The notes beneath the pieces were generated by a model. It saw only the letters and a program-made list of their open reading frames with translations. It made no database searches and was not told where the DNA came from. This document shows, one piece after another, positions 30,526 to 44,670 of a stretch of DNA of 64,000 nucleotides (positions are counted from its first letter, which is position 1; each line of letters starts with the position of its first letter). Source of the stretch: Flavisolibacter sp. (GTDB lineage Bacteria > Bacteroidota > Bacteroidia > Chitinophagales > Chitinophagaceae); NCBI GenBank assembly GCA_028288675.1, contig JAQBNG010000130.1:1-64000 (forward strand). The letters are read 5' to 3'. A program made the translations under genes and the position numbers.

Positions 30526-31782
30526 TTAAGGGTAATCTATTACTTCGGTAGAAGCCGGCACTGTGGTATCATCGGGCACAAGAGCCGCAATACCAAAGGC
30601 GATAACCGATAAAATCAACCCTACCATAAACACCGTGTAAGAAATGCGCAGGTACCTGTACTTCTTTGCCAGTACTACACCGAGGTAATAAATATCCATC
30701 ATCATAGTGTTGTATAAATATTCCTTATCCTTAATCATTTCGCGCATTCCCCATTGATAATCTGTTAGCTGCATCTCGTGAAAGTTTCCAAAGAAGAGAA
30801 GGTTTGTTTTTTTATTGCGAATGTCTTCTTCGGTAAACTTGCCACTTTTAATTGAAGGCCGGGTAGCCAGTATTGAGAAGGTAACTGATATTAAACAGGT
30901 GAGAATCAGGATACCGGTCGCTATCATAAAAATGGGGTAAAAAGCCACACGGGCCAGCAGGTACGAAATGGCTACCGAAAGAATAATAGAATTAACCGTG
31001 ATCATAATGCTTGCCTTATTGTCGGCCATACCACTCAATTCAATATGATTGTTAGAGGTGGTGCGAAACATGGTTTGTACGCCACGTTCAATATTCTTTT
31101 GTGCGCTTATTTCTTTTTTATCAGCGGCAACGGAAATATAAGGATAGGCGTGTTCCTTTTTTTCTAACTGTTTTTTTTCTACCACACCTTTCTTTTGCAA
31201 CAGGGCAAGGTTCTCGGCCTTTTTAGGTTCTAAAATGTCATGTCCATAATCAGTGAAGTAAGTATGCTGCCTTAAAAATTGCAGGTTGCTTTTGCGCCAT
31301 TCCTTCTTATCTATTTTATGGCCCAGTAAATTTTCTCTTTCCTGTTTAAGCAAGCTATTACGGGCTTTAAAATCTATGGTAGATAAATGATAGAGATCCG
31401 CATCGCATAAAATTTTCTCAATCAGGTTAACCGGCGACTGCGGCATCCGGGTGGCTTGTATGCACAAAGCAACACGTTGCACAAGCGTTTCAGCTGTATG
31501 ATGTGTATGTAAAAACTGTGTGGCTATATTTGCACTTGCCTCTTCGTGACCTTCATTTGTTCCAGACGAGTAACCGGTATCATGAAACCAGGCAGCCAGC
31601 ATAAGCGGCAGGCGGTCATCTTCTGGTAACTGGTAAAAATCGGCAATGTGGCTACAGGCCTCTACAACATCCTCGGTATGTTCTAAATTATGGAAAACAA
31701 ATTCAGGTTTTACACGATGGTGAATAAAGTCTGTTACATAAGTTCTGGTTGCTGCAAGTAGTTGTTCATTTATTTCGGTCAT
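30526..31782 (-). CDS. HD phosphohydrolase fused to Pycsar-type membrane effector (PycTM)
   Basis: 418 residues. The N-terminal HD domain (about 25-135) has the metal ligands HNLEH at 31-35, HD at 67-68 and CDAD at 126-129. A charged linker (150-235) follows. The C-terminal part (about 240-405) has the hallmark ADNKAS at 253-258 and three hydrophobic helices (about 260-280, 283-303, 380-402), matching the PycTM/DUF5706 Pycsar effector family. In defence systems, PycTM proteins respond to cCMP or cUMP made by a PycC cyclase and damage the membrane. No cyclase gene lies nearby, and HD-PycTM fusions seem widespread in Bacteroidota, so a defence role is open. It is divergent, over 36 bases, from the SdiA-regulated-like lipoprotein. 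Confidence 0.82.
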   Translation of the reverse strand: MTEINEQLLAATRTYVTDFIHHRVKPEFVFHNLEHTEDVVEACSHIADFYQLPEDDRLPLMLAAWFHDTGYSSGTNEGHEEASANIATQFLHTHHTAETLVQRVALCIQATRMPQSPVNLIEKILCDADLYHLSTIDFKARNSLLKQERENLLGHKIDKKEWRKSNLQFLRQHTYFTDYGHDILEPKKAENLALLQKKGVVEKKQLEKKEHAYPYISVAADKKEISAQKNIERGVQTMFRTTSNNHIELSGMADNKASIMITVNSIILSVAISYLLARVAFYPIFMIATGILILTCLISVTFSILATRPSIKSGKFTEEDIRNKKTNLLFFGNFHEMQLTDYQWGMREMIKDKEYLYNTMMMDIYYLGVVLAKKYRYLRISYTVFMVGLILSVIAFGIAALVPDDTTVPASTEVIDYP

Positions 31783-31818: not shown

Positions 31819-32700
31819 ATGCGTAAAATGTTATTTCAAAAGGAGTGCCCGCCTCTTACACCATTGATCTTACTGGTTGCTTTATTGCTGAATGGCTGCA
31901 AAAGTATAGATTCTCAATCTCCCCAGGATTATACTATGGACAAGCCACAACGCATGGAACTGGGGAAAGCGTTAAACGAGATTTCGGGCATTTGTTATAA
32001 TAGTAATGACAGCGGCCTGCTTGCGATAGCAGACAGCAAGGAAAAGATTTTTCAATTATCCTTAAAGACGAAAAAGCTAAAAGATTATACGGAGAAAATA
32101 GTAGAATCGAATAGCGATCTGGAAGATATTGTAAAAGTGGATACGGCAATATTCCTGCTTATGAGCAAAGGTATTTTGGTGGAAGTGCCGGATAAAGCAA
32201 CCGATACATCGGGCATAAAAATGTATGACGCAGGACTTTCCGGTTCCAACGATTTTGAAACACTTTATTACGATCCTTCCGCTAATGGCCTGGTAATGCT
32301 TTGCAAAACCTGTGGCCGTGAAAAAGGCACCGGTGTACGTACTGCCTTCCGCTTCGATCTTCGTACCCGCACCTTCGACAGCAATGCCTTTTTCACCATC
32401 AGCAGGGGCGAAATTAAAACCCTGTTAAAGAACGCCGATGCTAAGTTTGAGCCCTCTGCAGCTGCTATACACCCGTTAAATAAAAGGCTCTATATTCTTT
32501 CTTCTGCAGGGCATTTGCTCGTGATAGCAGATACAAGAGGGCAGGTGTCGGAGGCCTATGATTTAAACCCCGATATATTCCCGCAGGCGGAAGGCATTGC
32601 TTTTGCACCTAATGGGGACATGTATATATCTAACGAGGGCAAGTATGGTAAACCTACTCTCTTGCTTTTTCGTTATCAACAAAAGGGAAAGAAAAGATAA
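31819..32700 (+). CDS. SdiA-regulated-like beta-propeller lipoprotein
   Basis: 293 residues with a lipoprotein signal (LVALLLNGC, lipidated Cys27). The mature part resembles the SdiA-regulated / YjiK family, a beta-propeller: ELGKALNEISGICYNSNDSGLLAIADS, VESNSDLEDIVKV, FEPSAAAIHPLNKRLYILS and QAEGIAFAPNGDMYISNEG are the repeated blade signatures. Proteins of this type are exported and often act on, or bind, phosphate- or nucleotide-containing ligands, but no reaction is proven. The next gene begins one base after its stop codon, so cotranslation with the phosphoesterase fusion is likely. Confidence 0.8.
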   Translation: MRKMLFQKECPPLTPLILLVALLLNGCKSIDSQSPQDYTMDKPQRMELGKALNEISGICYNSNDSGLLAIADSKEKIFQLSLKTKKLKDYTEKIVESNSDLEDIVKVDTAIFLLMSKGILVEVPDKATDTSGIKMYDAGLSGSNDFETLYYDPSANGLVMLCKTCGREKGTGVRTAFRFDLRTRTFDSNAFFTISRGEIKTLLKNADAKFEPSAAAIHPLNKRLYILSSAGHLLVIADTRGQVSEAYDLNPDIFPQAEGIAFAPNGDMYISNEGKYGKPTLLLFRYQQKGKKR

Positions 32701-32701
32701 T

Positions 32702-35700
32702 ATGATGATGAAACAAAGACTGCTGGCAACCTTAATGGTTTTTTTTGTGCTGATATCAAAGGCGCAAACAGATACGATTACCCAACGCATTTTTTTAATT
32801 GGCGATGCAGGAGAGTTAGTTAACGATACACACCCGGTAATGAACTGGCTGCAGAAGCATGTTGATTGGAATGATGCCCGCAATGCCGCTATTTTTTTGG
32901 GTGATAATATTTATCCTCTTGGCCTGCCAATGGAGGGAGAACCTTCGTACCATGAAGCAAAAAAAATTCTTGACTACCAGTTAAAGCCTTTTATAAACCA
33001 TAAAGCAAAAGCCTTTTTTATCCCCGGTAATCATGATTGGAAAAATGGCAAGCTGGGTGGCTGGCAACAGGTTCGCAACCAGCATAATTATATCAACGGA
33101 TTAGCGCAGCCTAACATTCAATCGTTACCGGTTGATGGTTGTCCTGGACCAATAGCAATTGATATAAGCCCACAGGTGGTAGGAATATTTATAGACAGCC
33201 AGTGGTTCTTATACATTCATGAAAAGCCCGGTCCGGGTTCGTCGTGCAATGGCCGTACACTTGATGAATTTCAAACAGAGCTAAGAGAGATCATAGCTGC
33301 ACATCCTAACCAGTTAGTGGTATTGTTAACCCATCATCCATTGTATTCTTTTGGCGTGCATGGCGGCGATTACAGATTGAAGGAACTCCTGTTTCCATTT
33401 ACTGCAATAAATAAAAACTTATGGATTCCTGCGCCGCCGCTCGGGCTTGTTTATGTACTTGCCCGTGGTGTATTTGGCAGCCTGCAGGATGTTAACCATC
33501 CGCTTTATAAAACCATGGTGCGTACTATTGAAACGGAACTTAAAAAACATCCTAACGCAATTGCAGCCGCAGGCCACGACCATAGCTTGCAGTTAATTAT
33601 GCATGATAGCATTCCTTATATTGTCAGTGGGTCGGGAAGCCTTTTAAGCCGTGTAAAAGAAAACCGTAAAGGCGATCTTTTATTCCAGGATTTGAGCTAT
33701 GGCTTTTCAATGATTGAAGTAACAAAGAGCGGCAAGGTAAGTACCAAGTTTTATAACATCAACGACAAAGATCTATCTGCGCCCAACTTTACAAAAGAGA
33801 TGAAGCCTATAGTTACTTTACCGGCTATCATATCAAAAGACAGTATTCCTATTCTGCCCGATTCTGTTCTGTTTGCCGCTAATCTGAAGCTTAAGGAAAC
33901 AGGCTTGCGCAATTTATTTATCGGTAAAAATTACCGTAAGGAATGGTCAACACCAATAAAAGTGGAAGTGTTGAATTTGGGAAAAGAACAAGGTGGTTTA
34001 ACACCAGAAAAACAAGGCGGCGGAAAGCAAACAAGGTCGTTACGGGTTACAGATACAACGGGTAAAGAATGGGCCTTGCGTTCTGTAGCAAAATATCCTG
34101 CTGCTGCAATACCAGCCGATTTACGGCAAACGTTTTTAAAAGATATTGTATCCGATGGCATCTCGGCGTCTTACCCTTACGGCAGCTTATCTATTGAACC
34201 TATGGCCAAAGCTGCTGGTGTACCGGTTTTAAAAAAGAAGCTGGTATTTATTCCCGATGACCCACGGCTTGGAAGGTTTAGAGAGGAATTTAAAAATACG
34301 TTGGCTACTATGGAGGAGCGGGAACCGGCCGGTGTAAAGAAAGATTATAATACGGATGAAGTTATCCTGCGTTTGGCAAAGGATAACGATGATCATATAG
34401 ACCAGGTAAGTGTGCTGAAAGCCCGGCTACTTGATAATTTTTATATGGACTTTGACCGTCATGAAGGGCAATGGAACTGGGCAACGAGAGATACCGGTAA
34501 AGGGAAAATTTATTATGCTATTCCTAAAGATCAGGACCAGGCTTTTTTTACTAACCAGGGCCTCATTCCTCATTTTGCAAAGAGGCCATGGCTGGTACCG
34601 GAGTTCCAGGGCTTTAAAGCAAAAGCTGATAATATTAAAACATTCAATCGCCCTGCCCGCAACTTCGACCGCTTCTTTTTAAACGAGCTTTCAAAAGAAA
34701 CCTGGAGTAATTACATTGATAGTTTTTTATTACGAATGACGGATAAGGTGATACAGGATGCGATGATGCAGCAACCAAAGGAAACCAGGGACTTTCATTA
34801 CAACAGCATAGTGACTACGTTAAAGAAAAAGCGGGATCATTATAAAGATGATATGATGGAATACTACCGCTTTCTTTCTAAAGAAGTAAGCATTGTAGGC
34901 ACCAACCAACGGGAGCTTTTTACCATTGATAAACTGCCTGAAAACAAGGTGCAGGTAACCGTACATAAAATTGATAAGGATAATGCGGTAAGCTCAAAAA
35001 TATACGACCGTATTTTTGATAAGGAAGACACAAAAGAGTTGATGATATATGGCCTGGAAGACCGCGATAGTTTTATAGTGCGTGGCGGGCATACCGGAAT
35101 AAAAATCCGTGTTATAGGCGGTTCCGGCAACGATCATTTTAGTAATGAAAGTACCGAAGGCAAACCGGTAAGGGTGTATGATGTAAAATTTGAAGAGAAT
35201 ACATTCAGTGGTACAGACAACGGTTTTGTAAAACGTATTTCATCCGACCCACGCAATAACGAATACAACAGGCTTTCTTATAAATACGGGTATTTTAATC
35301 CAAGCATTCAATATGCGTATAATGTAGATGATGGCTTATTCCTTGGGGTAAGAGGGGAAATAATAACGCATGGTTTTAGAAAAGACCCTTTTAGCACCCG
35401 TCATATATTCAGGGCCGCTCATGCTTTGCGTACTTCCTCTTACTTCTTTCAATATAGTGGCGATTTTACAAAAGCTGTGGGTACAAATGACCTGGTGATA
35501 CGGGGCGATTTAAGAGCGCCTGTTAATATCACCAATTTCTTTGGCATTGGTAACAACACTACTATCGATAAAGCTGCACCGGGCGGTATTGATTATTACC
35601 GTTCCCGTTATAACATTGGAAATTTATCGGTAATGCTGCGCAAGCAATTGCAATCGTGGATGCGGGTAAACTATGGTGCTGCCCTTCAGTATTTTGATAT

Positions 35701-36349
35701 AAGCCGCGGAGGAAATAAGGATAGGTTTTTGGGCAATGGCCCTCTGAACGGTGTTGACCTAACTACTTTGTATGATACGAAGCTATATGCAGGTGGCCAG
35801 GTGTTATTAGATATCAACTCAAAGAACAATGTAAATGTTCCTACCCGCGGTTTTATATTGGATGCCGGCGCACGAAGTTTATTTGGCCTGAATAATAAAA
35901 GCAATAATCTCTCACAACTTCATTGGGATATGGCCGTATTTGCTTCCTTTGAGCCAACCGCAAGAGCCGTGTATGCGGTGCGTCTTGGCGTAGGTCATAA
36001 CATTGGCAAGTTCGAAATTCCGCAGGCGCAATATTTAAGCGGCACCGAAAATTTAAGAGGCTATCGCCGTAACCGCTTTGCTGGCCGTACAATGTTGTTT
36101 AACAATGCGGAGATACGGATAAGAGTGGCTGACTTTACTACTTTTTTATTCCCCGGCTCAATTGGTATCATTGCCTTTCATGATATAGGAAGGGTGTGGG
36201 TTGATGAAGAAAAATCGGGCAGATGGCATACCGGCTACGGGGGTGGAATTTATATTTCACCAATACGGCGCTGGGTGGTTACAGCATCTTTAGCACATTC
36301 AAAAGAAGAGAATATTTTGCCTTATGTGAGTTTGGGGTTCAGGTTTTAA
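32702..36349 (+). CDS. Metallophosphoesterase + kinase-like middle + outer-membrane barrel fusion
   Basis: 1215 residues from ATG 32702 (MMMKQRLLATLMVFFVLISKAQ, a Sec signal peptide; the longer open frame to 32597 overlaps the upstream gene). Residues about 28-300 are a calcineurin-like phosphoesterase: GDAG at 34-37, GDN 67-69, GNHD 109-112, HH 211-212 and GHDH 291-294, a complete two-metal site. Residues about 440-720 resemble an atypical kinase fold: ALRSVAKYP with K464, DFDRHEGQW at 583-591 and AIPKDQDQAF with D610/D612. The last 350 or so residues form a beta-barrel with an Omp85-type LRGYRRNRFAG near residue 1118 and terminal Phe. Outer membrane location with a periplasmic or surface enzyme is inferred. 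Confidence 0.85.
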   Translation: MMMKQRLLATLMVFFVLISKAQTDTITQRIFLIGDAGELVNDTHPVMNWLQKHVDWNDARNAAIFLGDNIYPLGLPMEGEPSYHEAKKILDYQLKPFINHKAKAFFIPGNHDWKNGKLGGWQQVRNQHNYINGLAQPNIQSLPVDGCPGPIAIDISPQVVGIFIDSQWFLYIHEKPGPGSSCNGRTLDEFQTELREIIAAHPNQLVVLLTHHPLYSFGVHGGDYRLKELLFPFTAINKNLWIPAPPLGLVYVLARGVFGSLQDVNHPLYKTMVRTIETELKKHPNAIAAAGHDHSLQLIMHDSIPYIVSGSGSLLSRVKENRKGDLLFQDLSYGFSMIEVTKSGKVSTKFYNINDKDLSAPNFTKEMKPIVTLPAIISKDSIPILPDSVLFAANLKLKETGLRNLFIGKNYRKEWSTPIKVEVLNLGKEQGGLTPEKQGGGKQTRSLRVTDTTGKEWALRSVAKYPAAAIPADLRQTFLKDIVSDGISASYPYGSLSIEPMAKAAGVPVLKKKLVFIPDDPRLGRFREEFKNTLATMEEREPAGVKKDYNTDEVILRLAKDNDDHIDQVSVLKARLLDNFYMDFDRHEGQWNWATRDTGKGKIYYAIPKDQDQAFFTNQGLIPHFAKRPWLVPEFQGFKAKADNIKTFNRPARNFDRFFLNELSKETWSNYIDSFLLRMTDKVIQDAMMQQPKETRDFHYNSIVTTLKKKRDHYKDDMMEYYRFLSKEVSIVGTNQRELFTIDKLPENKVQVTVHKIDKDNAVSSKIYDRIFDKEDTKELMIYGLEDRDSFIVRGGHTGIKIRVIGGSGNDHFSNESTEGKPVRVYDVKFEENTFSGTDNGFVKRISSDPRNNEYNRLSYKYGYFNPSIQYAYNVDDGLFLGVRGEIITHGFRKDPFSTRHIFRAAHALRTSSYFFQYSGDFTKAVGTNDLVIRGDLRAPVNITNFFGIGNNTTIDKAAPGGIDYYRSRYNIGNLSVMLRKQLQSWMRVNYGAALQYFDISRGGNKDRFLGNGPLNGVDLTTLYDTKLYAGGQVLLDINSKNNVNVPTRGFILDAGARSLFGLNNKSNNLSQLHWDMAVFASFEPTARAVYAVRLGVGHNIGKFEIPQAQYLSGTENLRGYRRNRFAGRTMLFNNAEIRIRVADFTTFLFPGSIGIIAFHDIGRVWVDEEKSGRWHTGYGGGIYISPIRRWVVTASLAHSKEENILPYVSLGFRF

Positions 36350-38469: not shown

Positions 38470-40347
38470 TTACGACGACCTGAAAGCAATTGGGTGATTT
38501 AGCTTTTTATGCTGCCCTAAAAAGATGCGCAGGTAAATGCGGATAGCAGCCAGCTCAATAAAAATAAAGCAAAGAGCCAGCAGGGAAATCAAAACAGCCT
38601 CGTTACTATCTACATACGTAAACAGCACATCTATACCGATAAAAGCAGTAGTAATGGGGAAGCCGAGTATGCCGATAGCCGCCAGTAAAAATAATAATGC
38701 AGTGCTCTTTTCTTCATACACATAGCCGTGATAGTTGTTTAATGAAATATCATTATCAATCGCCTTTATTCTATTTAAACAATAAAACCCAATTGCAAAT
38801 GCAGCCGCCACTCCAGCGGTGTAAAAGACAATCTCGATGGTATTGATATGTGTAGCAATAGTTCCAATGCCTGCTATAATAAACAGGTGAGCCAGTAACA
38901 GGTACAACCATGCTTTTAACGCTGAGCCACGATAGGAAAAGGCAAAGAGGATAATAATAAAAGAGGTAGTTAATAATACTATTGAAACTGTAGTCTCAGC
39001 AGATGATAGAAACCCTGGTTTGTAAATGGAAATGAGAAAGGCAGTAACCCCTGCCAATGCAAGCACAATAGCTGCAATGGGCGAACGCAAAAATTGCGCT
39101 TGCCTGCCAAGCCATTTAAAAGGAGCCCATAAAATGTTATGCATGGCACCATCAAGGTTCCACTCTTTTATACCTAATACATACAAGCCTGCCTGTAGTG
39201 GCGTAATAGCTTTTTGCTTTGGCGCATGGTAATGAAAATACTGGTGATGTACCAGGTAGTTTAATACCGATGGCGAAACCAGTAATTGATAGGTGCGCAA
39301 GAAGGCATTGCCAGCAAAATGTATAAGAGCTAAGACATGCCAGCCCAAAGCTACTTCAATGAATATGATCCCGATTTGTGCGGCTGATGAATAAGCAATT
39401 TGTGTTTTTACTGTTGGCTGCACCCTTGCGATAAGCGAAGCAACAATGCCTGTGGCTGCGCCAATAACAATAATTGTGATTTTAGCCCAAAGCATATCCT
39501 GCCAGAAGGGTGCGGTACGTAATAATAGAAACACTCCAATATGAACACTTAGTGAACCGTAAAATATAGCAGACGACGTGGTAGGTCCTTCCATGGCACG
39601 TGGAAGCCAGAACGTAAATGGAAACTGTGCCGATTTAATCATTGCGGCCAGTATAATCATGATGACAATGAAGACGGCCATACCCGAATGATCGTTTTGT
39701 AAGGCGATGTTTTTCGCTTCTTCCAATTGGCTAAAGCTGATGTTCTGGTGGGTAAGGTGGTGCATCATCCACATGGCAAGAATCAAGGCCAGGTCACTTA
39801 ACCGGTAATTAGAGAGAGTTTTAAATGCATTTTTTACCGGCAGGTAACGGTTGCGGTAAAAGGCAATTAATAAAAAGGAGGATAGGCCAATTACTTCCCA
39901 GCCAATGAAAAAGGTTTCAAAGTTGCCGGAAAAAATAATGAGGTTATAGCCTAAGGCAAAGAATAGAATGGTGTTGAAAAAACGTTTGTACCCCTCATCG
40001 CGGTGCATGTAATAACGGCTGAAGGTTGCTACAAGAAAAAATAAGACAGCACCAACGATGCTGTAAACAACCGTTATCAAATCATAATAAAACTGGATAG
40101 CAAAAACAAAGTGGTCTGTTTGGTAAACGGTAAACAGTCTTTGATTGACAGGGACGCTTCCATTTATAGCCCACAGCACCGCATAAGCCACGGCTGCAAT
40201 AACGTAGAAACCTTTTGTGAACTGTACGATACGAATGATTGGCTTTTCCTGCTTGTTTTGCCAGAATAAGGAAGCAACAAAAGCTACCAGCGGTATCAGT
40301 ATAAATAAGAAGATAGATTGGTTGAGTAGATAATCGAAGTCGTTCAC
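38470..40347 (-). CDS. dabB: DabB, NuoL-like proton-conducting partner of DabA
   Basis: 625 residues, a polytopic membrane protein of the Complex I antiporter-like (NuoL/MrpA) family. Key proton-path residues are visible: E151 in FIGWEVIGLSSF and K238 in AAMIKSAQFPFTFWLPRAMEGPT. It lies directly downstream of the DUF2309 (DabA) gene, which identifies it as DabB rather than a respiratory subunit, since no other nuo genes are present. In characterised DAB systems, DabB carries ion flow that drives CO2 hydration by DabA. It begins 91 bases after the dabA stop; the gap holds a fragment of the gcgtcgcactctt repeat. Confidence 0.92.
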   Translation of the reverse strand: MNDFDYLLNQSIFLFILIPLVAFVASLFWQNKQEKPIIRIVQFTKGFYVIAAVAYAVLWAINGSVPVNQRLFTVYQTDHFVFAIQFYYDLITVVYSIVGAVLFFLVATFSRYYMHRDEGYKRFFNTILFFALGYNLIIFSGNFETFFIGWEVIGLSSFLLIAFYRNRYLPVKNAFKTLSNYRLSDLALILAMWMMHHLTHQNISFSQLEEAKNIALQNDHSGMAVFIVIMIILAAMIKSAQFPFTFWLPRAMEGPTTSSAIFYGSLSVHIGVFLLLRTAPFWQDMLWAKITIIVIGAATGIVASLIARVQPTVKTQIAYSSAAQIGIIFIEVALGWHVLALIHFAGNAFLRTYQLLVSPSVLNYLVHHQYFHYHAPKQKAITPLQAGLYVLGIKEWNLDGAMHNILWAPFKWLGRQAQFLRSPIAAIVLALAGVTAFLISIYKPGFLSSAETTVSIVLLTTSFIIILFAFSYRGSALKAWLYLLLAHLFIIAGIGTIATHINTIEIVFYTAGVAAAFAIGFYCLNRIKAIDNDISLNNYHGYVYEEKSTALLFLLAAIGILGFPITTAFIGIDVLFTYVDSNEAVLISLLALCFIFIELAAIRIYLRIFLGQHKKLNHPIAFRSS

Positions 40348-40377
40348 TATATATTTTTTAATTGCTCAATAACGATA

Positions 40378-40425
40378 GGCAGTACAAGAGTGCGACGCCA
40401 CTGAAGATGATAGTAATACTTCTGC
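40378..40425 (-). repeat. Fragment of the GCGTCGCACTCTTGTAC repeat
   Basis: In the 91-base gap between dabA and dabB, read on the minus strand, the words actatcatcttcagtggcgt and cgcactcttgtac match the start of the dispersed repeat copies at 7381 and 25546. It sits inside an otherwise compact operon. Confidence 0.55.
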
Positions 40426-40438
40426 TGGGCTAAAAAAA

Positions 40439-43054
40439 TCAATCTAATAAATACACAGGCAAATTTTCTTCGGTAGCATGTACTATATGGTTGGTTTCCA
40501 TTTCTCTTGCTCCCTCAATAAATTTCTCCATGTTCTTTATTGACTTGATCTGGTCCGCAGCAGTAATGGGCTGATACTTTGTAAACCCGCCATTACGGAA
40601 ATAGTAAAACTGTTGTTCCTGGGGATGCAACGCTATAATATGCACCCACTCATTTTTATACCATTCAAATACTTCGTCCGATGATTGAATAGCCTTTAAA
40701 ACAATGTCAGGTTGTTGCTCCACTATCACAAGCAATCGTACGGGGTCGTGCACTTCAATCATCTGCCACGGGAGGCCCGGCCGCAGATCGCCATCGCTAC
40801 TGTTGGCTACACCAAAAAGTCCCATAACATTATGCGGCAGTTTAGTGCCGGCGCCCATTTTAATATTATCTACTCTTGAAAAATAATATTCCAGGTTAAT
40901 GCCACCGCAAACCAGTCCAATGGGTTTCATCACGTTGGTAAGAATGGTTCCATCAGGGTCTGTTGTATAATCGTAACTATTAAGAAATGCACGTCTGTCC
41001 AGGAACAATCCTTTGGTTACATCGCGCCGGCCAATGATGGCTAATGTATTTGTACCATGACCTAACTCCGGTCTCGGTTCAAACAGGGAAACCGACCGGT
41101 TGTGTATGGCTTTACGCACCTGTTCCAGTTCCTGTTTAGTATTGATAGAAGCGAATCTCCTGCTTCTTTCTTTGGCATTCAGGTTAAGGGCCGTTTCAAA
41201 AGTTTGTTTATTTATAAGATGTTCTGCCGCGTTTTCTTTACTCAGTATTTCTTCATCATAGTAGCCTATTACATCAGCAGCGGTGTCGTGCATGGTGCCG
41301 ATAAATTGCGTTGTATCGGGAATGACAATTCCTTTTGTTTTTAAAGCCGCTCTCACTCCTTTGTGATTTAAAATAAAGGACTGAACACGGGCATTGGTAG
41401 CACCGGGCCGTCCGCTACAGGCGCCACAATCATGTGCGCCGTGGTGCGGATTGTTGGCACTGCTGCTGCCATGTGCAACGAAGTAAACAATAGGAGCAAA
41501 ATTTTTGACGAGCCCGATGCCGCGCAAAAAACCTTCGGCTCTTGTGATCATTTCATCCGGTGTATAACCAATCTGCAAATCATTCTCTCTATCATCAGGA
41601 GTTTTATTTTCTATGGTGAGGATTGATTGCCTATCCATGTGAGCATAGGCATTGGAGATAGCTGCACTCATTTTTGGTTTGAACAAATGGAGCACTGTTT
41701 TTATAGCCGCCCAAAAGCCAAAGGTGATGCTTAAGGCAAAACCGGTAAAAAATCCATGTGTGTGGCGGGTATAAAGCGGTTCATCTTTTCTTATCGTGTT
41801 GGCTTCTGATTCTTTAATTAAATATTTTGGTGTAACCGGTGCCGGACAAAGCTTATCATAAAACTTGCTATCCTGCTGCTGAAAATAAAACTCTACACCA
41901 AAGAAACCCGGAGCGCCCAATGTTTCGCTTTTTCTATCCACAGCTTCTATGTGGCGACGAATAGAATCTTCACGTTCATCAATACAAAAAATGGCCTGGA
42001 AACTTGATTCATTCTCATTAGAATAAATCTTTGGCTTGCCATTGTTTGATAGATCTCTCTTCTTATTCGACATAATGATGCCTTTCAACACCGAGTCATA
42101 ATAGCTCCATTCAAAAGCATCCTGCCATAACTCAATTACTTCAGAGAATTCTGTCCTTTCTTCGTCAGCAAATAAATCTATCGGTGGCGCCATTGCATGA
42201 AAGGCCAATGGCTGCCACTTGGTTTTCAAACTTGCATTGAGTGCATCGAGTTCCATTAGCAACTCAAACTCAATCAGCTCTTTTAGCGTAATGTTTTTTC
42301 TATCTAATAAAGTTTGCGGGTTGTCTTCTACCGCACTGGCAAACCCGCTCCAGCCGTGATGCGAAAATTGCTGGTCAAATAAATACTGTTCAAAATATTC
42401 TTCTTTGCCTACAATGGTTTTTAAAAGTTCCGTAATAGAATAATCACCTGAAATAAATTTTTGCCTGATTGCTTTTGTTTTGAAAAAACTAATAGGACTT
42501 TTTCTTTCCAACTCTTTCATGCTTTCAATGAAACCCTTGTTGACAATTGGAAAACTTTGAATAGCGATGCCCTGGTCTAAAAAAGCACAAAGAATACGGA
42601 ATAAAAACGGGTGTACTTTATTATCTAAATCCAAATGATAAACTTCCTTCCATAGTTTACGCAGGTCTCCAATTCGGGGGCGATTAATGGTATCGTATGT
42701 GCCGTTTAGCAGCTTCGACTTCCATTCTGTTACGTTTGCCTTTTTAGCAGAAATAACCATCTGCAATACGTCCTCTCTTATCCTTCCTGTTTTGTACATC
42801 TCCCTGTACTCGGGCAATTGCAAGTGAACCTGGAAGCCGAAGATTTTGGATGCTTTAAAAATGGCATCATAAAACTTCATCTGCTGGAAGCCATGAAGTG
42901 TATTATGATGAATGAAATCTTTTAGCGCCTGTTGCGATGGCAGGAAATGCTTTAACTGATGTATGGCATGGTTCTCATCAAAATGAGAAGCGGCGTTCGG
43001 TACTGCATCTTTTTGATGCGTTCCTATATTGTGCTGCTTTGCGGTTGTATTCAT
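40439..43054 (-). CDS. dabA: DabA (DUF2309), CO2-hydrating subunit of the DAB complex
   Basis: 871 residues, matching the large cytoplasmic subunit of the DAB inorganic-carbon accumulation complex, which uses a beta-carbonic-anhydrase-like zinc site to turn CO2 into bicarbonate unidirectionally. The zinc site looks complete: C357 and D359 in FCIDERED, H528 in VAHGSSS and C543 in HDCGACSG. The spacing H-15-C equals that of the Halothiobacillus enzyme (C351, D353, H524, C539). The N-terminus has HFLPSQQALKDFIHHNTLHGF, typical of DUF2309. The start ATG shares one base with the SulP stop (TAATG), giving translational coupling. dabB follows. Confidence 0.95.
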   Translation of the reverse strand: MNTTAKQHNIGTHQKDAVPNAASHFDENHAIHQLKHFLPSQQALKDFIHHNTLHGFQQMKFYDAIFKASKIFGFQVHLQLPEYREMYKTGRIREDVLQMVISAKKANVTEWKSKLLNGTYDTINRPRIGDLRKLWKEVYHLDLDNKVHPFLFRILCAFLDQGIAIQSFPIVNKGFIESMKELERKSPISFFKTKAIRQKFISGDYSITELLKTIVGKEEYFEQYLFDQQFSHHGWSGFASAVEDNPQTLLDRKNITLKELIEFELLMELDALNASLKTKWQPLAFHAMAPPIDLFADEERTEFSEVIELWQDAFEWSYYDSVLKGIIMSNKKRDLSNNGKPKIYSNENESSFQAIFCIDEREDSIRRHIEAVDRKSETLGAPGFFGVEFYFQQQDSKFYDKLCPAPVTPKYLIKESEANTIRKDEPLYTRHTHGFFTGFALSITFGFWAAIKTVLHLFKPKMSAAISNAYAHMDRQSILTIENKTPDDRENDLQIGYTPDEMITRAEGFLRGIGLVKNFAPIVYFVAHGSSSANNPHHGAHDCGACSGRPGATNARVQSFILNHKGVRAALKTKGIVIPDTTQFIGTMHDTAADVIGYYDEEILSKENAAEHLINKQTFETALNLNAKERSRRFASINTKQELEQVRKAIHNRSVSLFEPRPELGHGTNTLAIIGRRDVTKGLFLDRRAFLNSYDYTTDPDGTILTNVMKPIGLVCGGINLEYYFSRVDNIKMGAGTKLPHNVMGLFGVANSSDGDLRPGLPWQMIEVHDPVRLLVIVEQQPDIVLKAIQSSDEVFEWYKNEWVHIIALHPQEQQFYYFRNGGFTKYQPITAADQIKSIKNMEKFIEGAREMETNHIVHATEENLPVYLLD

Positions 43055-44670
43055 TAATTAGTTTGGGCTTCTAAAACTTGCGGTTTCTTCCTCAACGTCT
43101 CATCTTCGGAATGTACATGCACTGCATCCTGCATTAGGTAAGCATCCTTAAAGTTGCGCAGGCTTACTGTAATATTTTTGTCCTTTGAGCCAAAGGCTAC
43201 AAAATCTCTTATAAGTGCCAGTACATCATAGTCTATATAAACCGTGTGGGCGGCGTCAATAACAACTTTGCTATTTTCTGGCAGATGCCCTAAGGTTTGT
43301 TTGATGGCCGCTTTGTTTAAGAACGATACCTCCTGTGCCAGGTCAATATAAATCGTTTCACCTTCGTGATGCTTCTCTTTTTTAAAGAAGTAAGCCAGCT
43401 TCATGTTTCCTTTCAAAATAAAAATAATGCTTACGGCTAAACCAATTCCTACGCCTTTTAACAGATCGGTAAATACAACTGCCAGCACCGTTGCAACAAA
43501 AGGCACAAACTGGTATTTACCCGCATGCCACATGTGCTTAAATATTTTAACGCTTGCCAGTCGTAAACCAATCATAATTAATATGGCGGCCAGGCAGGCC
43601 ATTGGTATTTTATTTAATAAAAAGGGAATAGTGACCACTGCCAGTAAAAGAAAAACGCCATGCGCCATTGCAGATATTTTTGTTTTGGCACCGGCATTTA
43701 TATTTGCTGTTGTCCGTACAATTACAGAGGTCATAGGCAAACCACCGATTAAGCCTGACAAAATATTGCCAATGCCCTGTGCCTTCAATTCGGTGTTAGC
43801 ACTTGAGTAACGTTTCAAGTGGTCCATTTTATCACCTGCCTCCAGGCATAGCAGCGTTTCTATGCTTGCTACTATAGCAATGGTGGCGCCCACTATCCAT
43901 ACTTTTGAATTTGTAAACCCGGAAAAATTAGGAGTAGTAAACTGACCAAAAAACTCGCTGAAAGATGAAGCTGTTGGCAGTGTTACCAAGTGCGCCTGTG
44001 AGATAGCCAGAGATGAACCGGCGGACTTGAATATTTCGTTTATAATAATGCCAACTACAACAACAACCAGGGCACCGGGGATAGCTTTAATTTTCTTTAA
44101 AAAAGCAATTTTATTAAATGCAATCAGGATGCCTATTGATACTACTGTAATAATGATTGCTCCAAGATGAGCATAATTAATTGAGTTGATTATTTCTGTA
44201 AAAAATCCTGTTTCGGACCCTTTTTCCAGTGCAAACCAATCGCCCTCATGCGCTTTATCGTAACCAATAGCATGTGGCAATTCCTTTTTTATAATGATGA
44301 TGCCTATAGCCACCAGCATTCCTTCAATAACACAGGTGGGGAAATAGGTGGAAATAGTGCCAGCTTTTGCAAAACCCAGGGTCAATTGAATTGCTCCGGC
44401 AATAATTACAGCCACTAAAAAAGTTTCATAACCTAAATCTGTAACAGCCACCAGGATGATAGCAATTAATCCGGCTGCCGGCCCCGACACGCTTACATTT
44501 GATCCGCTTAAATAACCGACAACTATACCAGCGATTACGCCGCAAATAATACCGGCAAAAGGCGGTGCGCCACTGGCAACGGCAATGCCCAAACAGAGCG
44601 GCAAAGCCACCAAAAACACCACCATGCCCGAAAGCAAATCGGACTTTAAATACTTTGTAGTTAGTTTCAT
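43054..44670 (-). CDS. SulP family anion (probably bicarbonate) transporter
   Basis: 538 residues. The SulP transmembrane domain (about 1-420) begins with LLSGMVVFLVALPLCLGIAVASGAPPFAGI and includes the NVSVSGPAAGLIAI ion-site loop. A short C-terminal STAS domain (about 435-520) is visible (VSFLNKAAIKQTLGHLPENSKVVIDAAHTVYIDYDVL). The cyanobacterial homolog BicA carries bicarbonate with sodium; other members carry sulfate. The dabA overlap and the neighbouring carbonic anhydrase favour bicarbonate. It begins 119 bases after the carbonic anhydrase stop, beyond a terminator-like hairpin. Confidence 0.9.
   Translation of the reverse strand: MKLTTKYLKSDLLSGMVVFLVALPLCLGIAVASGAPPFAGIICGVIAGIVVGYLSGSNVSVSGPAAGLIAIILVAVTDLGYETFLVAVIIAGAIQLTLGFAKAGTISTYFPTCVIEGMLVAIGIIIIKKELPHAIGYDKAHEGDWFALEKGSETGFFTEIINSINYAHLGAIIITVVSIGILIAFNKIAFLKKIKAIPGALVVVVVGIIINEIFKSAGSSLAISQAHLVTLPTASSFSEFFGQFTTPNFSGFTNSKVWIVGATIAIVASIETLLCLEAGDKMDHLKRYSSANTELKAQGIGNILSGLIGGLPMTSVIVRTTANINAGAKTKISAMAHGVFLLLAVVTIPFLLNKIPMACLAAILIMIGLRLASVKIFKHMWHAGKYQFVPFVATVLAVVFTDLLKGVGIGLAVSIIFILKGNMKLAYFFKKEKHHEGETIYIDLAQEVSFLNKAAIKQTLGHLPENSKVVIDAAHTVYIDYDVLALIRDFVAFGSKDKNITVSLRNFKDAYLMQDAVHVHSEDETLRKKPQVLEAQTN

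Follow-up and report, generated by a model that had tools for sequence, protein, structure and literature searches.

In bacteria, an enzyme is joined to an outer membrane barrel in PlpD-type Omp85 proteins, where a secreted N-terminal patatin precedes the barrel, and a kinase and a phosphatase share one polypeptide in AceK, the cytoplasmic isocitrate dehydrogenase kinase/phosphatase, which has one active site. For the kinase HipT, the catalytic Asp210 is reported to stand two residues before His212 and the D233Q variant to be inactive (PMC10627512), and for CotH the D228Q and D251A variants are described as inactive (PMC7821199), while the PycTM effector of Pycsar systems is described as a membrane pore in phage defence (PMC11224242). 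Here we describe a protein that joins a phosphoesterase, a kinase-like middle domain (hereafter K) and an Omp85 barrel, encoded in a 64,000-nucleotide stretch of a Flavisolibacter sp. genome (Chitinophagaceae; assembly GCA_028288675.1, contig JAQBNG010000130.1, positions 1 to 64,000; hereafter the window). We consider it reasonably probable that this protein is an outer-membrane-anchored, periplasm-facing kinase-phosphatase, which works with an inner-membrane PycTM protein.

The open reading frame of 1215 residues lies exactly where the original prediction had placed it, with its ATG at 32702 and its stop codon ending at 36349 on the + strand, and so do its motifs at K464, 583-591 and 609-615. 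The domain order is a signal peptide, a phosphoesterase, K, a beta-rich stretch and the Omp85 barrel. Residues 1-22 (32702..32767, ending in ISKAQ) resemble a Sec signal peptide by eye. The calcineurin-like phosphoesterase (residues 28-300, 32783..33601) matches Metallophos PF00149 at residues 40-232 (expectation value (E) 4e-8, 34.4 bits against a cut-off of 21.5) and carries all five metal-binding motifs (GDxG at 34, GDNxY at 67, GNHD at 109, HH at 211-212 and GHxH at 291-294), a combination that places it in the purple-acid-phosphatase type; the named motif residues are kept in 27-30 of the 30 full-length proteins, and of its seven PDB matches, all weak (E at least 0.09), six are purple acid phosphatases. 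The barrel (residues ~870-1215, 35309..36346) matches PF01103 at residues 983-1183 (E 1e-8, 35.5 bits against a cut-off of 24), and NF047779 scores 78.3 on it, below its own cut-off of 200. A phosphoesterase followed by an Omp85-like barrel, as predicted from the sequence, thus stands. No POTRA family was recognised in the Pfam and NCBIfam scans, and the phosphoesterase and K occupy that position.

The core of K spans residues ~400-735 (33899..34906), with its end placed at ~735 because five further relatives of 426-433 codons, which consist of the K core alone, stop there. The beta-rich stretch that follows (residues ~740-845, 34919..35236, strands in the structure model) is present in 14 stand-alone K proteins and absent from the five short ones, and neither the core nor this stretch has a Pfam or NCBIfam match. 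Conservation was assessed in 69 distinct sequences covering the middle domain, the window's included; five open reading frames that do not reach across it (L013, L027, L037, L046, L060) were set aside, as was L006, the window's second copy. These 69 show K to be a mobile domain: 30 are phosphoesterase-K-barrel proteins, 24 are K-barrel proteins and 15 have K alone. Counted with the last group is L036, which is truncated at the edge of its contig and whose barrel part is probably encoded on a different one. The conserved positions are GGG 439-441 within the Gly-rich loop GGGKQTRSL (439-447, 34016..34042), K464 in SVAKYP (461-466; K464 at 34091..34093), E538, D578, D583, D585-R-H and W591 in DFDRHEGQW (34448..34474), and D610 and D612 in KDQDQAF (34526..34546).

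K464 and D585, on whose conservation the original prediction had staked its kinase-like middle region, are kept in 68 and 58 of the 69 sequences, respectively, and none of the 30 full-length proteins deviates at K464, D585, H587 or D610. D583 and R586 are each present in 68 rows, D610 and D612 in 67, H587 in 66 and Q590 in 61. The sequence runs from a Gly-rich loop (439-441) through the predicted nucleotide-binding lysine K464, which lies in strand 3 of the model, and a catalytic-type Asp (D585) to a metal-type Asp (D610), as in proteins of the protein kinase-like (PKL) superfamily, and this pattern reads as the order of a nucleotide-binding kinase site. D585 is most likely the catalytic Asp, because it stands two residues before H587 as D210 does before H212 in HipT, and D610 is the probable second, metal-binding Asp; the spacing between the two is 25 residues, compared with 23 in HipT (210-233) and in CotH (228-251). 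Kinases usually have Asn where Q590 stands. By architecture, D585 is kept in 30/30 full-length, 14/15 stand-alone and 14/24 K-barrel rows; the only stand-alone row lacking it is the one cut by the contig end, and seven K-barrel proteins have Gly in its place and retain K464, D583, H587, D610 and D612. Because just 14 of the 24 K-barrel rows keep D585, some phosphatase-less proteins have lost the probable catalytic Asp; L036, the second copy carried by the window's genome, is one of these.

The protein is matched in 38 of 58 genomes consisting of the window's and its nearest kin, and K in 115 of 296 genomes sampled across Bacteroidota. In five of these 115 (G069, G089, G214, G262, G294) the match is weak and partial, and that of G214, located in a long protein that looks repetitive, may be due to chance. 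Six plasmid records also match the protein, one of them over the barrel only; where annotated, these entries are called hypothetical protein or DUF5982 domain-containing protein. Several further copies were seen. In the window's genome, a second K copy on contig C80 (L077), cut by the contig end, carries Gly at the probable catalytic Asp, and contig C141 begins with a piece made of a K tail and a barrel (L037). Stand-alone K genes of ~530-590 codons lie adjacent on both strands in L184 (three) and L185 (two), and a barrel protein of ~740 codons in G294 (L168) has an eroded K with DWSRTPAHISW in place of the catalytic loop.

K very probably has a kinase-like fold. Four lines of evidence, namely conservation, sequence profiles, structure and profile-profile comparison, agree on this, each of them individually modest. 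When a 61-row profile was compared with 177,635 distinct sequences of the PDB, the only match with E up to 10 was CtkA (E 0.33), with DRHNGNW opposite DRHxxQW. The fold search that the original prediction had named as its other test put atypical kinases in the lead with both of two AlphaFold models: the whole-domain model returned CtkA, PI4KII-alpha, PI3K-delta, VPS34 and HipA at the top (highest Z 5.7; nine of 50 rows were other proteins, including lymphostatin at rank 11, casposase, PAN2-PAN3 and ribosomal proteins), and the 50 listed rows for the core model held CtkA, PI4K, PI3K/VPS34, HipS-HipT chains and Legionella LepB (highest Z 6.3; 73 chains with a Z of at least 5), four kinase-chain titles naming only an inhibitor. 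The LepB family is itself listed as PKL-fold (PMC9758233). CtkA ranked first or second in both of these VIA searches, in which the absence of a family from the list is uninformative. With Foldseek, CtkA was ranked first, second and third for the core (probability 0.99, 0.89 and 0.92; E 4e-3 to 2.8e-2), and the Golgi casein kinase 4kqa appeared as a low-probability match for both models. The order of strands and helices in the core model fits a two-lobe kinase fold; with Z at most 6.3 and a predicted local distance difference test score (pLDDT) of 54-56, the models are therefore consistent with such a fold and not conclusive.

In profile-profile comparison with HHalign, the K core scored 25.0 against CotH over 159 columns (P 0.019), 12 decoy templates reached at most 18.9 and the mirrored best decoy pair 19.9, and CotH against HipA gave 28.9 for scale. 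In the window protein and eight fully scanned K sequences, CotH PF08757 had no match at E up to 1, and HipA_C PF07804 and Fam20C PF06702 had no Pfam match; neither CotH nor HipA_C was among the best 25 of 30 families for 61 K members. The suggested likeness to HipA, Fam20 and CotH kinases thus survives in part: the motif order holds and, of the two profile comparisons, that with CotH is the stronger, but CtkA is nearest by sequence and by fold, HipA scores within the decoys and Fam20C is unmatched. For the kinase-like middle region as a whole, neither of the two tests named went against the original prediction, which fold and active-site pattern support, while phosphotransfer is a step that we infer. 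K is best read as a new family of the PKL superfamily in the neighbourhood of CtkA, HipA, PI4K and CotH.

The second main result is the coupling of K to PycTM. Among clustered genes around 26 full-length loci, the most constant neighbour is an HD-PycTM membrane protein (in the window at 30526..31782, - strand; PF01966 1.9e-5, PF18967 2.4e-35), all or part of which occurs in 22 loci and which the original prediction does not mention; 14 of these loci have HD and PycTM as a fusion, the PycTM part alone was found in seven, and in L198 the two are separate neighbouring genes of 204 and 212 residues. The window's protein has HD at residues 33-132, with an HD-type site (HNLEH, FHD, DAD), and PycTM at 283-388, and its hydropathy indicates about three hydrophobic segments, at about 259-302 and 384-402. 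Its locus is apparently a housekeeping one.

Across the 296 genomes, strong PycTM matches (E up to 2.5e-26, a threshold chosen after the list was seen) occur in 96, of which 93 also carry K (both 93, K only 22, PycTM only 3, neither 178; Fisher 4e-51). In these 93 genomes the two lie within 5 kb of each other in 64, within 10 kb in 75 and within 20 kb in 80. The association persists when stratified by taxonomic family, for the 291 genomes with a family label (odds ratio ~386, p 3.5e-21), and in the window's own family strong PycTM is present in 4/4 genomes with K and 0/7 without. CotH, a control family of similar frequency, shows no such link to K in the stratified test (p 0.26). Counting any PycTM match (E up to 0.001), the corresponding table is 97/18/15/166.

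The state of the active site follows the same division. The residues K464, D585, H587 and D610 were scored in 137 K sequences, which represent 111 of the 115 K genomes; the other four genomes, presumably G069, G089, G214 and G262, were dropped because no match in them reaches the catalytic loop. All 93 genomes with K and strong PycTM hold at least one intact K site. Intact K without strong PycTM occurs in seven genomes (five of one genus in family f36, one in f24 and one in f42), and degenerate K only in 11 genomes of six families, none of which has strong PycTM (0/11, Fisher 7e-11); in the four families holding both states the link between intact K and PycTM has p 0.0024, with genomes within a family being related. 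In all 11 degenerate genomes H587 is gone, together with one or more of the other three residues (D585 in six, D610 in eight); R575 is retained in 11/11, and D578 and W591 in 10/11. Because genomes with degenerate K lack strong PycTM, these alignments support the view of the K motif as a catalytic site, with PycTM tied to catalysis and not just to the presence of the protein.

How could such a protein work? A crude hydropathy scan, rather than a trained predictor, covered the phosphatase-less relatives, leaving out the full-length ones, and found signal-peptide-like hydrophobic N-termini in 35 of 39; three of the other four begin at a contig or locus edge. Because of these N-termini and the Omp85 barrel, K is expected outside the inner membrane, and because the N-termini of Omp85 proteins face the periplasm, both enzymes most likely reside under the outer membrane, facing the inner one. 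The Gly-rich loop and K464 would hold the nucleotide, D585 would be catalytic and Q590, D610 and D612 would bind metal, allowing K to phosphorylate an envelope substrate. The purple-acid-phosphatase-like domain at the N-terminus may remove phosphate from the same substrate or another, or may act downstream, and the barrel would serve as the anchor. The inner-membrane PycTM protein, often HD-fused, could then supply the donor of K or relay its signal. A more specific version, in which the PycTM protein lets a nucleotide donor for K into the periplasm or controls how much of it enters, and the phosphatase domain of the K protein undoes the effect of K, all as a housekeeping trans-envelope phosphorylation system, appears unlikely to us. 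If true, it would make the Pycsar phage-defence pore a derived use of a domain that serves an envelope kinase, and would answer how an extracytoplasmic bacterial kinase obtains its donor.

A number of observations weigh against a periplasm-facing kinase coupled to PycTM. The periplasm is not known to have any ATP supply. Both structure models are of low confidence (pLDDT 56 for the whole domain and 54 for the core; predicted template modelling score 0.57 and 0.56), and both alignments held 7 sequences, a number that did not grow because a search of viral contigs for K relatives yielded none that was confirmed. No Z in the fold searches reaches 8 and the template modelling score is ~0.3; no Foldseek match passes E 0.001 with either model, and for the whole domain a Ty3 reverse transcriptase comes first, with YeaZ chains mixed in. 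A 7-row profile placed CtkA second of two matches (E 0.64), behind a TetR regulator, and HHalign gave the pairing of K with CotH a probability of just 2.4% and K with HipA a score of 17.1, inside the decoy range. D585 is missing from 11 of the 69 sequences, none of them full-length, and persists in 5/11 degenerate genomes. As to PycTM, three genomes have a strong match without K, the seven genomes outside the 93 keep an intact K without PycTM, and three of the 11 degenerate genomes (G070, G238, G292) have weak matches, which lie over 100 kb away from K or on a different contig. The relatedness of genomes inside families and the late choice of the strong-match threshold count on the same side.

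Four other explanations deserve consideration. SelO and SidJ have non-kinase activities, and K might likewise have a kinase fold and be an AMPylator, a glutamylase or a ligand-binding pseudoenzyme, a rather unlikely option in our view. In its favour are Q590 in place of the usual Asn and the seven barrel-linked relatives that have Gly for D585 and keep K464, D583, H587, D610 and D612. The inclusion of SidJ and SelO in the PKL-fold list of PMC9758233 points in the same direction. Against it stand the four invariant site residues of the full-length proteins and the loss of H587 plus another site residue in each of the 11 degenerate genomes. K could also be a non-catalytic structural linker with a convergent resemblance to kinases; the low model confidence and the need of barrel and phosphatase for a connector would agree with this, but 24 rows have K without the phosphatase, 14 complete rows and the five 426-433-codon cores have nothing besides it, and its polar site residues are among its most conserved positions, so that we give this explanation very little credence.

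The remaining two concern the substrate or donor. PI3K, PI4K and VPS34 dominate the fold search, and some Bacteroidota make inositol lipids, which would be compatible with a lipid kinase-phosphatase pair acting on outer-membrane inositol lipids. The inositol-phosphate synthase family PF07994 is slightly commoner in genomes with K (26/115 against 22/181; Fisher p 0.023, uncorrected for relatedness). PI3K entries, however, are very numerous in PDB and fill the fold list, and such a role is disfavoured because 89 of the 115 K genomes, including all 27 of family f24, have no PF07994 match; we regard it as highly improbable. A role in the polyphosphate metabolism of the envelope, where polyphosphate would be the donor or the substrate, is very unlikely as an explanation, and the link suggested by gene neighbourhood is a weak lead. 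By eye, 5/26 loci, each from a different taxonomic family, contain a PPK1-like gene and 3/26 a SixA-like phosphatase, and L195 has HD-PycTM, PPK1, the SdiA-regulated propeller and phosphoesterase-K-barrel in this order on one strand. Among the matches listed (150 rows, 123 genomes), 44 genomes have both K and PPK (PF02503), and in 13 of them the two are no more than 20 kb apart. All 13, however, belong to family f42, twelve of them at distances of 12.7-15.9 kb, PPK is near universal (267/296 genomes), and no PPK1-like gene was found in 21 of the 26 loci.

Other neighbours of the kinase-phosphatase gene are less constant. The SdiA-regulated propeller lipoprotein directly upstream (31819..32700, + strand; PF06977 3e-12) is encoded in the same direction, with a single base between its stop and the start codon at 32702. 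The coupling to this propeller that had been proposed holds for the window, where the two genes adjoin, but the propeller gene occurs in just 14/26 loci. A protein of ~790 residues in 12/26 loci has no Pfam match and looks GAF-like by eye. In three loci of f42 (L197, L198, L203), a ~650-residue protein beside the full-length gene has a cyclase-like start by eye, followed by repeats; this neighbour is of interest because a cyclase product is what the PycTM effectors of Pycsar systems respond to. No pyrimidine cyclase family was recognised among the scanned neighbours, and no search aimed at such families was made. Further downstream, the window encodes a proton-antiporter-like protein adjoining DabA (an inorganic carbon uptake pair; 38470..44670, - strand), with a sulfate-permease-family protein beside the pair.

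We rate K as a new family of a known superfamily, and its arrangement and partner as ones for which no report was found in the open-licence literature. Among the open-licence papers listed by the searches, judged by title or abstract start, none was about the phosphatase-K-barrel combination. Niu et al. are said to have described in 2021 a Riemerella metallophosphoesterase with phosphatase activity; in the part of a review that deals with it, this enzyme is placed among type IX secretion effectors, and it is probably another protein. The main texts of an Omp85 survey (PMC4104836) and of a paper on BAM in Bacteroidota (PMC12611786) do not mention phosphatase, phosphoesterase, calcineurin or kinase. 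If our reading is right, an undescribed envelope kinase family would be present in 115 of 296 sampled genomes of a large phylum, often with an opposing phosphatase on the same chain (30/69 sequences), and proteins called hypothetical in plasmid records would gain a working name. The match of intact sites with PycTM (93/93) would make both the donor source of extracytoplasmic kinases and the role of PycTM outside phage defence testable in common laboratory bacteria.

The nearest solved relative of K by sequence and fold is CtkA of Helicobacter pylori (3akj, 3akk, 3akl); the sequence match is not significant, CtkA has Asn where K has Q590, and its solved chains of 275-325 residues leave no room for a phosphatase or a barrel. 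CotH, as its published description has it, resembles K in being a PKL-fold kinase of extracellular structures with a similar spacing of its two Asp residues (D228, D251), but the scanned K sequences have no PF08757 match and the distribution of CotH does not track that of K after stratification. HipA and HipT share with K the His two residues after the catalytic Asp, and HipT, according to its cited description, a second essential Asp 23 residues on; unlike K, they are cytoplasmic toxin-antitoxin kinases, the HipA profile score lies within the decoys, and the scanned K sequences have no Pfam match to PF07804. The sequence of enzyme and Omp85 barrel is shared with PlpD-type proteins, but two enzyme-like domains precede the barrel here and neither is a patatin. 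AceK likewise combines kinase and phosphatase on one polypeptide, whereas the two putative activities described here would reside in separate domains behind a signal peptide. The Pycsar effector domain PycTM (PF18967), finally, recurs in the partner gene, but here it belongs to conserved K loci and is often accompanied by HD.

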